This document shows, piece after piece, positions 36,554 through 41,847 of a stretch of 51,423 nucleotides of DNA. Within the stretch, counting starts at the first letter, position 1, and each line of letters opens with the position of its first letter. The stretch is from the NCBI GenBank assembly GCA_030432435.1, contig JAUIGX010000003.1:1-51423 (forward strand), given 5' to 3'. Position numbers and translations under genes: made by a program. The notes beneath the pieces are model-generated. The model was not told where the DNA came from. It saw only the letters and a program-made list of their open reading frames with translations, and searched no databases. The stretch is from Alphaproteobacteria bacterium. Its GTDB lineage: Bacteria; Pseudomonadota; Alphaproteobacteria; Rhodospirillales; Rhodospirillaceae.

Positions 36554-37987
36554 ATGGCCGATCTTAAAGTCACCGACTCGCTTTTCTTCGACAAGACCGG
36601 CATGGATAAAGGCTCGGTGGATCGCATCGTCTCCGACGCTTTGCAGGGCTGCGACGACGGCGAATTATTCATGGAATATTGCCAGTCGGAGAGCTTCTTG
36701 TTCGACGATGGCAAAGTAAAAAGCGCCTCCTTTGACACCTCGCAAGGGTTTGGGCTGCGGGCGGTCGCCGGAGAAACAACAGGCTTCGCTCATGCCTCGA
36801 ACCTGGACGAGCAATCCATCGCCCGCGCGGCCGACACAGTCAAAGCTGTGCGCAGCGGCGCCGGCGGCACCTTGGCCGCGCCACCCATCGGCACCAATCA
36901 GCAGCTTTATACCGACGAGAACCCTCTTCCGATGGTTCCGTTCGATGTGAAAGTAGAAACCCTTGCAGAGATTGATGCCTATGCCCGTGCCAAGGACCCG
37001 CGCGTCAAACAGGTGACCGCATCGCTCGGCGGGTCATGGCAGGCGGTGCACATAGTGCGGGCCGGCGGCGAAGCCGCTGCGGATATCCGCCCCCTCGTCC
37101 GACTGAATGTTAGCGTTGTCGTCGGCGACGGTACGCGTATGGAATCGGGCAGCTACGGCACCGGCGGGCGCGTAACCTATGAGGAGTTTCTGAAACCGGA
37201 AACGTGGCGCGCCGCCATCGACGAAGCGTTACGGCAAGCCCTCGTCAATCTCGAGTCCGTGGATGCTCCCGGCGGCGAAATGCCGGTGGTCCTCGGCCCG
37301 GGCTGGCCCGGCATTCTGCTGCATGAGGCGGTCGGTCATGGCCTGGAAGGCGACTTCAACCGCAAGAAGACATCTGCGTTCTCAAATCTTATGGGCAAAC
37401 AGGTCGCCGCCAAAGGCGTGACAGTGGTTGATGACGGCACGTTCACCGACAGGCGCGGCTCGCTCACAATTGATGATGAAGGCACACCCACATCTAAGAC
37501 CGTTTTGATCGAAGACGGCATTCTCACCGGCTATTTGCAAGACCGCCTTAACGCACGGCTTATGGGTATGAAACCGACCGGAAACGGACGGCGCGAGTCT
37601 CATGCGCATCATCCCATGCCCCGCATGACCAATACCTTCATGCTTAGCGGCGACAAGACCCATGACGAAATCATCAGCACTGTGAAGAAGGGCATCTATG
37701 CCGTCAGCTTCGGCGGCGGCCAAGTGGACATTACCTCCGGCAAGTTCGTGTTCTCGGCCACCGAGGCGTACATGATCGAAGACGGCAAGGTGACGCGCCC
37801 CGTTAAAGGCGCCACCTTGATCGGCAACGGACCGGATGTGCTGACCAAGGTCTCCATGATCGGCAACGATATGAAACTTGATCCCGGCATCGGCACCTGC
37901 GGAAAGGACGGCCAAGGTGTGCCCGTGGGCGTTGGCCAGCCGACCTTGAAAATCGAACAGCTTACGGTCGGCGGCACCGCGATTTAA
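36554..37987 (+). CDS. tldD: Metalloprotease TldD
   Basis: [47 protein letters not shown] (HExxxH) and C-terminal [30 protein letters not shown]-like motif (here GTCGKDG...). Confidence 0.97.
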   Translation: [477 protein letters not shown]

Positions 37988-38862
37988 GGAAATCGGTAGG
38001 TCAGTCGCAAGCCAGCGCTGGTATCGACGCTGGCGCGCGAAAAGCCGCGCACGGCATAAACCGTGACCGAAACGCTACGCGTAATGTCATAGGCTCCATA
38101 CATCACCAGTTCCCGGCCATCGCTCCCGCCTGCACGCGGCGATGTCCGCCAGTCGAATATCGCCCCGACGGCAAAGCGATCAGTTACCGACCGGCCGACA
38201 CCGACCGACACGCCTTGCACATCACGCCCGCCGTTCTCATGCGATCGCACCCCGTATGATCCAGAAAGCAGCAGCGACCATTTCCCGACAAGTTGCGTTA
38301 AATCGATTTGCACATCGCCGCTGACCTTGCCGTTGCCGAGCCCATTCGCGCGGCTTGCTGTCGGAAGTTTCACGCGAAGTCCCACATCGATAAACGTGCC
38401 GCTTTCAAAGCCCTCGAATGCGGCATAGCGCGCGCCGAGCACAACATCACCAATCCCGCTGACCGATATCGTATCCATATCAAGTCCAAGGGCCGTAATA
38501 TCATCCGGAGTCAGATCAAGAATAGAAGCGTAATCTACCGGACCTTTGACTTTGACGTAGCCGCTATCAACAGAAACAGCCCAGCGGCCGCGCCGGTAGC
38601 CCGCCCCGACCGGATAGTAGAAAACGTCGGTCGATTGGCGCGCGCCATACGTGCCGCGGCTGAAGTCGAAGCCGGCGCTAATATCGAACTGACCGGGCAA
38701 CGCGCCGCGTAATTCCGACAGTGTTTCTATGGCGAGTTCACCGGGATAAGCCTCCGCCGCCAACTGATCACCTAACGGATCGGCGGCGCTGGCGGGCAGG
38801 ATAAAAAAGAGAAGTCCGAAACATAAAGCAGCAGTGAAAGTGGTTTTAAGTGTGCGGCGCAT
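37984..38862 (-). CDS. Putative outer-membrane beta-barrel/transporter-like protein
   Basis: Signal peptide (MRRTLKTTFTAALCFGLLFFILPASA), alternating amphipathic strands, C-terminal aromatic residue (LTYRFP). Confidence 0.6.
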   Translation of the reverse strand: MRRTLKTTFTAALCFGLLFFILPASAADPLGDQLAAEAYPGELAIETLSELRGALPGQFDISAGFDFSRGTYGARQSTDVFYYPVGAGYRRGRWAVSVDSGYVKVKGPVDYASILDLTPDDITALGLDMDTISVSGIGDVVLGARYAAFEGFESGTFIDVGLRVKLPTASRANGLGNGKVSGDVQIDLTQLVGKWSLLLSGSYGVRSHENGGRDVQGVSVGVGRSVTDRFAVGAIFDWRTSPRAGGSDGRELVMYGAYDITRSVSVTVYAVRGFSRASVDTSAGLRLTYRFP

Positions 38863-38958: not shown

Positions 38959-39468
38959 TCAGTCGCCGCGACCGACACGAACCGATGTTTCTCCGCGCAC
39001 CGCACGATCAACGCGAGCAACTTCCCCCGCCTGCAAGCGACGGCGCTCGGTTGCCGCGTCATTGCCTTCTGCTGCGTTCAAGACTCTGCGGCGATTAGCG
39101 CCGACTTCATCCGCCCCGCCTGCGCTGAGGTAGCGTCGGCGGTTGGGATCTTGATCACTGCCACCTCCGCCGATAAGTCCGGCGTTGTAGAGACGTCGCA
39201 GCAAGTTGGGATAGTTACCGGACTGAATCGCGGCCCGGATGCGTTCGAGATTGATGTCGATACTCGCCTCCGGCACACCGCGAGCCCGTAAGCGGTCCGC
39301 GATTATTGTCGTGTCAATGGCGGCACGGGGGGTAACCCGTTCGACTCCGGGTATCGCCCGGTCCACACGGACCGTTGATCGATCAGCCTGCGCCATAGCC
39401 GTATTCGCCATGCCGAGAACCGATACAGTCGCTAAAAGCAAAAGGATGCGTTTCATGAGTTTCTCCAT
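38959..39468 (-). CDS. Small secreted Arg-rich repeat protein of unknown function
   Basis: Signal peptide (MKRILLLLATVSVLGMANTAMAQA) and repeated NRRRYLSAGG/NRRRVLNAAEG/ERRRLQAGE units; start at MEKL (39468) or MKR (39456). Confidence 0.6.
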   Translation of the reverse strand: MEKLMKRILLLLATVSVLGMANTAMAQADRSTVRVDRAIPGVERVTPRAAIDTTIIADRLRARGVPEASIDINLERIRAAIQSGNYPNLLRRLYNAGLIGGGGSDQDPNRRRYLSAGGADEVGANRRRVLNAAEGNDAATERRRLQAGEVARVDRAVRGETSVRVGRGD

Positions 39469-39526
39469 GTCTCCAACCTGGTTCTGGTGCCGGCGCGGCC
39501 TGGTTGGAGAGACCTTCGCCGTAGAT

Positions 39527-39543
39527 GTGGGTAAATAACCCAC
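39527..39543. promoter_or_regulatory. Palindromic putative operator 1 (GTGGGT-AAATA-ACCCAC)
   Basis: Perfect 6-5-6 inverted repeat in the divergent intergenic region. Confidence 0.75.
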
Positions 39544-39561
39544 TTCCATGAGCGACGATAT

Positions 39562-39578
39562 GTGGGTATATTACCCAC
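39562..39578. promoter_or_regulatory. Palindromic putative operator 2 (GTGGGT-ATATT-ACCCAC)
   Basis: Perfect 6-5-6 inverted repeat, same half-sites as operator 1, 35 bp start to start. Confidence 0.75.
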
Positions 39579-39602
39579 GTCAAGGGAAAAGCATCCGTAG
39601 AT

Positions 39603-39619
39603 GTGGGTATTTTATCCGC
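39603..39619. promoter_or_regulatory. Palindromic putative operator 3, imperfect (GTGGGT-ATTTT-ATCCGC)
   Basis: Same left half-site; right half has two mismatches; preceded by the same CCGTAGAT as operator 1. Confidence 0.65.
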
Positions 39620-39674
39620 ATCTAAAAAAGTCTATGTTTTGCAGAATGATAGAAAGGCGTGCCCGGCGACGGTG

Positions 39675-40571
39675 ATGACGGAAAAAGCGACACACGACGG
39701 ACCAGGCGGCCCCGGCGGCCCGCCCCAGGCATTTCTCAAGGCGCTTGATCGTCTGGCAGAACCGCTTGTGCGCGCCCTCATTTCTCTGGGCGTCACCTTT
39801 CCGCTATTTAGCCGGGTACTGAAACGAATCTATATCCGCGTCGCGACCAACGAGGCACGAGCGGACGGAGCACCTTTAACCGTCAGCCGCATCAGCGTCA
39901 TGACCGGGCTGCAGCGCAAGGACATCGGCCAGATCAAAGACCAGATCGAGCGCAAACTAGGTCCGCCTGCAAATGTTTCTCTTGGCGCGCGTCTGATTAC
40001 GATTTGGAACGGTGCAAAGTCCTTCACAGACTCGGACGGCAAGCCGTTACCCCTGCCCCGCTTCTCGGGGCCATCCCCGACATTTGAAGATCTTGTTCGC
40101 AGTGTCAGTACAGATGTCCGGCCGCGTGCGGTGCTTGATGAATGGCTGCGCCTCGGCGTTGTCGGTATCGACGACCAGGACCGCGTCCATATGCGTTCAG
40201 ACTCGTTTGTGCCGCGCCAGGGCTTTGAAGAGCTCTCATATTTTTACGGACGCAACCTCGCCGATCACATCGCATCATCCACCTACAATCTTCTTGGCGA
40301 AGGCGAGCCTCGTTTGGAGCGAGCCGTCTATTACGACAGGCTCACACCTGACTCCGCTGCGGCGCTCGAGAAATATGCGCGTGATGTCGGCGGTGAAGCT
40401 TTGCGTCAGATCAACCGTGAAGCTTTGCGCCTTGCAGACGCCGATGAAGGCAAACCGGACGCCGACCAGCGTATGAGCGTCGGCATCTATTATTATTCCG
40501 GACCCGACGAGGACTCGAACGAGAGTTCAAATACGGAAGCCGGCACAGAAACCGGCGATGAAGATGTCTAG
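39675..40571 (+). CDS. DUF6502-like protein, possible winged-helix regulator
   Basis: 322-aa ORF with likely start MTEKATHDG; helix-turn-helix-like segment PLTVSRISVMTGLQRKDIGQIKDQI; the GTG start of the track (39603) lies inside operator 3. Confidence 0.65.
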   Translation: MTEKATHDGPGGPGGPPQAFLKALDRLAEPLVRALISLGVTFPLFSRVLKRIYIRVATNEARADGAPLTVSRISVMTGLQRKDIGQIKDQIERKLGPPANVSLGARLITIWNGAKSFTDSDGKPLPLPRFSGPSPTFEDLVRSVSTDVRPRAVLDEWLRLGVVGIDDQDRVHMRSDSFVPRQGFEELSYFYGRNLADHIASSTYNLLGEGEPRLERAVYYDRLTPDSAAALEKYARDVGGEALRQINREALRLADADEGKPDADQRMSVGIYYYSGPDEDSNESSNTEAGTETGDEDV

Positions 40572-41847
40572 GCTGCACCTTTGGATTGCCATAGCGCTCG
40601 CTGGCGCTCTACTCGCCGGGTGCGCGGGTACACCCGATGCGCTTCAACCTAGCGCGCAACTCCAGTGCCGGCCCGCAGACGGTCTTGGCGGGACAGGTAT
40701 CACGATAGCCGACCGCGGCATGGGCGGAACCGGGATCGACCGGGGTATGGGCGGCACCGGCGTTTTGGCTCAGGACCGCGGCATGGGCGGCACCGGGATT
40801 CGTGTCGGGATCATCGGAACCGTCACCGGCTTCGGCAGCATTTGCGTCAATGGCGTCCACATCGCTTATGACACTGGTACACCGGTGAGCGAAAACGGCA
40901 GGCCGGTTAGTACAGAAACTCTTGCCCTTGGGCAGACGGTCGCAGTATCGGCGATCGAAAATAATGCGCAGCTCACCGCAGCCTCCATTTCACTGGCCCA
41001 CGCGCTGACGGGTCCCATCACGGACGCTCCTGATGCAACCGGCAGCTTTGCCGTTATGGGCGCGCCGATAAAATCAGCCTTTGCTGCCGGCGTTGACATC
41101 ACAACACTCAGTGTTGGCGACGTTGTCACCGTTGACGGACTCCGGCGCGCCGACGGCACCATAGACGCTACCCGCATTGTCAAAGCCCCGGCGGATGCGA
41201 CCGCATTCATTCGAGGCATGATCGAAGTGTCTACCGACGGCGTTCGTATCGGCACGGTGAGGCTCGTCCTACCTTCCAATCAACTGCCGGGCCTAGCCGC
41301 CATTAACGGACAGTGGGCGATCGCCGAAGGTATTTGGTCGAACGACCAATTCACGGCCAACACCTTTGCGGTTGGCTCCGACCTCAACCCCGCCGCTATT
41401 ACACGGTTGTCGGTAGAAGGCTATCTGATCGGCACGCCCGATACGGGCTACAAGGTTCGCGGCATTCCGATCCGCGAAGAGTTGGAACGACGGCTCGCGC
41501 GCACAACGCTCAATCGTCTTGCAAACGGGCAGCGGGTTCAGGTGATTGGAAATGTCGAGCGGGATGGAAGCTTACGTATCCAGACCATCGTCGTGCCCGA
41601 CTATCTCAACCCGCTTCAGGATAGCGCTGCATCCGATGCAACGCTCACACCCGAGGAAAGCCGGACCGCCGCACAAACGCGAGAGCAAGTACAGCAGGAA
41701 CGCGGCACCTACAGACCTGCTGTAACGCGCCCAGAAACACTGAACGAACGAGGACTTGATATCCGAAGCGAGTCACGCCCGAACCGGCCCGTACTTGATC
41801 AACGGCCGCCCATTCAGCGCCCGCCGCCGCCGCCAACCCGGCGTTAG
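40558..41847 (+). CDS. DUF5666-like lipoprotein with GMGGTG repeats
   Basis: Lipobox-like LAGALLAGC; GLGGTGI/DRGMGGTGI/DRGMGGTGV/DRGMGGTGI repeats; repeated GxVTGFGSICVNGVHI / GQTVAVSAI-type small beta-domain blocks; 14-nt overlap with upstream gene. Confidence 0.72.
   Translation: MKMSRLHLWIAIALAGALLAGCAGTPDALQPSAQLQCRPADGLGGTGITIADRGMGGTGIDRGMGGTGVLAQDRGMGGTGIRVGIIGTVTGFGSICVNGVHIAYDTGTPVSENGRPVSTETLALGQTVAVSAIENNAQLTAASISLAHALTGPITDAPDATGSFAVMGAPIKSAFAAGVDITTLSVGDVVTVDGLRRADGTIDATRIVKAPADATAFIRGMIEVSTDGVRIGTVRLVLPSNQLPGLAAINGQWAIAEGIWSNDQFTANTFAVGSDLNPAAITRLSVEGYLIGTPDTGYKVRGIPIREELERRLARTTLNRLANGQRVQVIGNVERDGSLRIQTIVVPDYLNPLQDSAASDATLTPEESRTAAQTREQVQQERGTYRPAVTRPETLNERGLDIRSESRPNRPVLDQRPPIQRPPPPPTRR
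40711..40800 (+). repeat. 27-bp coding repeats, three copies encoding DRGMGGTG(I/V)
   Basis: gaccgcggcatgggcggaaccgggatc at 40711-40737, 40738-40764 and 40774-40800 (9-bp insertion before the last copy). Confidence 0.9.

Follow-up and report, generated by a model that had tools for sequence, protein, structure and literature searches.

A conserved palindromic operator array upstream of DUF6502 genes, probably bound by the DUF6502 protein

Three short palindromes occupy the space between two divergently transcribed genes in the window, by which we mean the whole 51,423-nucleotide stretch of DNA analyzed here. An arrangement of this kind raises the question of which protein binds the palindromes and what becomes of the two genes when it does. 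The gene to the right encodes a member of DUF6502 (PF20112), a family that Pfam annotates only as being of unknown function. We asked which features of the array are shared with other genomes and whether they point to the adjacent protein as the binder.

The array and its flanking genes

The preliminary description had placed the three sites in the divergent promoter, with an invariant left half, an A/T-only 5-bp center, and a 15-bp direct repeat nearby, and each of these features was recovered at exactly the positions given (Table 1). All three sites have GTGGGT as the left half and are inverted repeats of the form GGGN7CCC. The arms of sites 1 and 2 match perfectly over 6 bp, and the right arm of site 3 (ATCCGC) carries two mismatches. 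The right arm at this position is likewise degenerate in close orthologs (TATCCCC, TGTCCGC), perhaps through double use as promoter sequence. Across the window there were seven matches to GTGGGTAWWWWACCCAC with up to three mismatches, six of them being the three sites read on both strands; shuffling gave an expectation of 0.35, and no shuffle reached seven. A scan of the organism's own 3.31-Mb assembly, which the preliminary description had proposed, confined the exact palindrome to sites 1 and 2.

Table 1. Coordinates of the features discussed in the text (positions are those of the window unless a locus is named)
Feature	Position	Strand	Remarks
Phenol_MetA_deg-family (outer-membrane-like) protein gene	37984..38862	-	second gene of leftward unit; E 8.2e-8
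Small exported protein gene	38959..39456	-	first gene of leftward transcript; ATG at 39456 or 39469
15-bp direct repeat CCGTAGATGTGGGTA, copy 1	39519..39533	+	contains left arm of site 1
Operator site 1, GTGGGTAAATAACCCAC	39527..39543	.	predicted at ~+6 to +22 of leftward transcript; register conserved, offset 40 from -35 start
Leftward -10 hexamer TATCGT	39555..39560	-	17-bp spacer; promoter pattern search and comparison of loci
Operator site 2, GTGGGTATATTACCCAC	39562..39578	.	covers last base of leftward -35 hexamer and 16 of 17 spacer bases
Leftward -35 hexamer TTGACG	39578..39583	-	promoter pattern search and comparison of loci
15-bp direct repeat CCGTAGATGTGGGTA, copy 2	39595..39609	+	contains left arm of site 3
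Operator site 3, GTGGGTATTTTATCCGC	39603..39619	.	degenerate right arm; overlaps predicted -35 region of DUF6502 promoter
Predicted DUF6502 -35 TTTTAT	39610-39615	+	assumes 17-bp spacer; inside site 3
Probable DUF6502 -10 TATGTT	39633..39638	+	orthologs have TATATT/TATAGT at similar distance
DUF6502 (PF20112) gene, 298 aa	39675..40571	+	proposed operator-binding regulator; Pfam E 1.5e-25
DUF5666 exported protein gene	40558..41847	+	GMGGTG repeats; overlaps end of DUF6502 gene
Predicted structured RNA, own genome	L009:2439-2643 (G000:C41)		divergent from H-type DUF6502 array; alignment of 37 loci

The distances to the gene starts had also been estimated about right, with 55 bp between site 3 and the DUF6502 ATG and 70 or 57 bp between site 1 and the left ATG. 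The rough symmetry of the array between the two genes, as claimed earlier, holds for distance but not for function: site 2 falls within the leftward promoter, whereas site 3 lies on the rightward one. The 15-bp direct repeat was not found in the orthologs and is therefore lineage-specific. Relative to its counterparts in orthologs, site 3 of the window is displaced outward by ~10 bp, about one helical turn, and one local duplication may explain both the repeat and the outlying site.

Pairing of DUF6502 with DUF5666 is conserved, with a GxGGTG-repeat DUF5666 gene directly downstream in most loci and across phyla. The window DUF5666 protein carries DRGMGGTG repeats, and similar GxGGTG repeats are seen in the downstream partners across phyla. 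On the leftward side, the small exported protein matched no Pfam family; it has homologs on the divergent side in the closest orthologs, and several loci of the window type encode small exported proteins divergently from DUF6502. Phenol_MetA_deg-family genes are neighbors in many DUF6502 loci. A different arrangement was seen in gammaproteobacterial loci L156, L159, L161, and others like them, where DUF6502 and the gene for a GxGGTG exported protein are divergent and a single palindrome lies upstream of the DUF6502 gene.

The window protein scored 90 bits against PF20112 (gathering cutoff, 27), which places it in the family. Its AlphaFold2 model (pLDDT 86.7; pTM 0.76) predicts a helix-turn-helix (HTH) at residues 70 to 88, formed by helices 70 to 77 and 81 to 88, with the motif TGLQRKD at residues 77 to 83. 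A second winged helix is possible at residues 137 to 173. The model had no full-length match among solved structures or viral models, and a sequence search of solved structures gave marginal matches only. A search of a literature library found no paper on DUF6502, PF20112, or the operator; we propose both the DNA-binding role and the operator here.

Conservation and co-occurrence with DUF6502

DUF6502 genes were present in 39 of 198 related genomes and at 525 places in a genome collection, mostly in Proteobacteria, 80 of which were fetched. From these we assembled 105 nonduplicate DUF6502 loci and compared the 250 bp upstream of each start with an in-gene control of equal length, using the motif GTGGG-N7-CCCAC with an A/T-rich center. 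This footprinting had been set beforehand as the comparison able to overturn the operator reading. When at most zero, one, or two mismatches were allowed, the palindrome was found upstream in 67, 87, and 93 loci, respectively, versus 0, 0, and 4 of the 105 in-gene controls. The loci with upstream palindromes span the Alpha-, Beta-, Gamma-, and Deltaproteobacteria/Myxococcota; some DUF6502 loci (e.g., L023, L024, and the Nitrosomonas loci L190 to L192) had no recognizable site. The three palindromes of the window are thus real and represent an operator, GTGGGWWWWWWWCCCAC, that is conserved in front of DUF6502 genes across Proteobacteria and Myxococcota.

What is conserved across loci is the primary sequence GTGGG/CCCAC, beyond mere complementarity, and this argues against the palindromes being RNA hairpins or inverted repeats of chance or structural origin. 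Site 1 would be part of the 5' leader of the leftward transcript and could fold there into a small hairpin, but sites 2 and 3 belong to promoter DNA that precedes both starts, and we regard this explanation as highly improbable.

The operator also tracks the gene. Exact GTGGGWWWWWWWCCCAC was present in 34 of 39 DUF6502-positive relatives versus 1 of 159 DUF6502-negative relatives, counts that are not independent, as the genomes are related; the latter frequency is no higher than that of a reversed-pattern control. Four of the five positive relatives without an exact copy had near-matches, and the fifth had a truncated gene.

A second line of evidence comes from the paralog. The organism's own genome has two DUF6502 genes, the second on contig C41. 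When two mismatches were allowed, the assembly contained just one further pair of palindromes, GTGGGAATAATTCCCAC and GTGGGAATATTTCCCAC, which lies directly upstream of this second gene. The sites next to the two genes are paralog-specific variants, GTGGGT..ACCCAC in the window and GTGGGA..TCCCAC on C41, and the recognition-helix motif differs as well: the window protein has TGLQRKD, the C41 paralog TGVHRKD. The same match is seen more widely: proteins with TG[VIL]HRKD (H type) go with GTGGGA sites. Of 108 sites belonging to TGVHRKD proteins, 99 had A at operator base 6 in both halves, while TGLQ[RK][RK]D proteins had T, C, or G at this base and never A. On the tree, one residue change (H/Q) and one base-6 change fall on the same branch. 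This switch is a single evolutionary event, so residue 80 is not singled out by it, and other residues changed on that branch could account for the switch in base 6.

Together, the co-occurrence, the site variants peculiar to each paralog, and a recognition helix that changes with them favor a DUF6502-like protein as the binder, as had been guessed from the window sequence, and suggest that DUF6502 is very probably a transcription factor family with a definable operator. It is conceivable instead that the palindromes are bound by some other regulator, encoded elsewhere, which has DUF6502 as just one of its targets, and extra sites away from DUF6502 do occur in a few genomes. Such a regulator, however, would be expected neither from the near absence of the motif in DUF6502-lacking relatives nor from variants that differ between paralogs in step with their HTH, which one outside protein could hardly explain; we consider it very unlikely.

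As for the sites away from DUF6502, we found no regulon elsewhere in the organism's own genome, where near matches were no more frequent than those of the reversed-pattern control; three of them were TTCGAA arms resembling those of tRNAs, and the rest were weak and scattered. Three relatives have window-type (GTGGGT) sites away from DUF6502 (L100 to L103, L111, and L112), near genes for a di-heme oxidoreductase (DHOR), a CCP_MauG peroxidase, an exported dioxygenase, a DUF1800 protein, and a CoA-transferase. In several relatives, H-type sites lie between a gene for a Cys/Met-metabolism pyridoxal phosphate (PLP) enzyme and a ureidoglycolate-lyase-like gene (L099 and L104 to L110), a locus that is a possible second target of the H-type paralog.

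Promoter register and proposed mode of control

The sites overlap promoter elements of both genes, clearly and in a conserved manner on the leftward side and more weakly on the rightward side. The leftward promoter pattern, TTGACG-N17-TATCGT in the window, was present in 57 of 103 upstream regions versus none of the 103 in-gene controls. The predicted transcription starts of the window are at about 39548 (leftward) and 39645 (rightward). Site 2 has the same register in the window as in eight further three-site loci that carry this promoter (L012, L013, L014, L021, L022, L054, the gammaproteobacterial L141, and the Nitrosomonas L172): its first base is base 6 of the -35 hexamer, and it fills the spacer, which is 17 bp in all three-site loci having this promoter. 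Site 1 starts 37 to 41 bases from the start of the -35 hexamer in these same nine loci. The spacing between sites is nearly fixed, most three-site loci having about 35 plus 29 to 32 bp. The usual position of site 3 in these loci is about -23 to -27, compared with -36 in the window. Loci with only two sites lack site 2 and retain the outer two, sites 1 and 3; their proximal site is just upstream of the divergent -35.

Our preferred explanation, to which we assign a probability of roughly 0.8, is that the palindromes are operators of the adjacent DUF6502 protein, which would repress both its own gene and the divergent one. The basis is comparative: the sites are conserved next to DUF6502 genes, occur in step with the presence of DUF6502, differ between paralogs, and keep their register relative to promoter elements. 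Each 17-bp palindrome would be bound by a DUF6502 dimer through the N-terminal HTH, and residue 80, the Q or H that opens the recognition helix, would be linked to operator base 6. With the protein on site 2 (within the 17-bp spacer) and on site 1 (at the leftward start), RNA polymerase would be blocked at the leftward gene; with it on site 3, the DUF6502-DUF5666 promoter would be blocked. The outcome would be an autorepressed switch, shared divergently by genes for envelope or exported proteins and presumably released by some signal. That the layout is one of repression, with both directions shut, is suggested because operators fill an optimal spacer, sit at a transcription start, and sit on the regulator's own promoter. 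The promoter geometry likewise lends support to the earlier proposal that both genes are controlled from the array.

The same protein on the same sites could instead work predominantly by activation, either of its own gene or of the leftward one. This may be suggested by the DUF6502 promoters, in which the proximal site overlaps a poor -35, an arrangement like that of class II activation, and by the proximal site just upstream of the divergent -35 in two-site loci. In the window, however, the optimal 17-bp spacer filled by site 2 adjoins a good TTGACG, and site 1 is located past the leftward start; both positions would obstruct polymerase. We therefore think predominant activation unlikely, although activation of the DUF6502 promoter itself is a possibility because site 3 overlaps a weak -35.

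If repression by DUF6502 is correct, it would give the family a first function, as a DNA-binding autorepressor and gene regulator, and a defined operator from which its regulon could be predicted by sequence. It would also link DUF6502 to DUF5666 and other exported proteins. The cell envelope is suggested as the target of the switch by the downstream DUF5666 genes, by the small exported proteins encoded divergently, and by the genes near the extra window-type sites of the three relatives, which are possible further targets.

Structured RNA at paralogous loci and comparison with known systems

At the H-type paralog loci, including that on C41, the divergent transcript is a predicted conserved structured RNA of ~200 nt with a terminator hairpin. 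In an alignment of 37 loci, compensatory changes were observed in 11 of 21 predicted pairs. The RNA was present in 37 of 198 relatives, all of them DUF6502 positive, and matched no Rfam family. Second copies lie away from DUF6502 at G023:C10:256601 and G044:C25:31766. An S-adenosylhomocysteine (SAH) riboswitch and 6S RNA were considered as identities and rejected because Rfam gave no match and in several carriers (e.g., G002, G004, and G006) a normal 6S gene is present separately, on a different contig. The paralogous array on C41 is predicted to drive a previously undescribed structured RNA. Taking the two loci together, we lean toward the broader view that DUF6502 is an unrecognized, widespread proteobacterial transcription factor family with its own residue 80/base 6 code, in which the paralog controls the structured RNA from a homologous array, giving a module of regulator, envelope protein, and small RNA; this is somewhat better than an even bet.

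Among known regulators, the cyanobacterial heterocyst regulator HetR resembles the proposed system in being an autoregulated dimeric HTH protein of ~300 aa with a G-rich 17-bp palindrome. Its operator consensus is gggN5ccc (PMC4649674), in contrast to the GGGN7CCC of the DUF6502 sites. HetR was the best fold match (E 0.031) of a first, low-confidence DUF6502 model (pTM 0.40), but this weak match to its three-domain fold was gone with the pTM 0.76 model. Profile comparison did not support homology either, with an hhalign probability of 0.1% for a HetR profile of three near-identical sequences, and a Pfam scan of 50 DUF6502 members at E values up to 10 gave no match to PF03574 (HetR). The HetR query sequence was checked against solved-structure chains. 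The HetR side of the sequence comparison is weak because no further relatives for a larger profile were found among plasmids, phages, and viral contigs.

MraZ boxes are direct repeats of TGGGN, and TGGG half-boxes are contained in the DUF6502 sites; these, however, are inverted repeats adjoining the gene of an unrelated protein family. MerR-type operators also sit in a promoter spacer, but in an overlong one of 19 to 20 bp rather than 17 bp. A further likeness is to TetR/TetA-type arrangements, in which autorepressors act at divergent promoters through multiple operators. As in those systems, the operators described here lie between divergent genes, overlap both promoters, and adjoin the regulator gene, and the repeated intergenic palindromes are conserved in orthologous loci, as expected of an autoregulated divergent operator array. 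The DUF6502 array differs in belonging to another protein family and in its three near-fixed sites, of which site 2 fits exactly into the 17-bp spacer.
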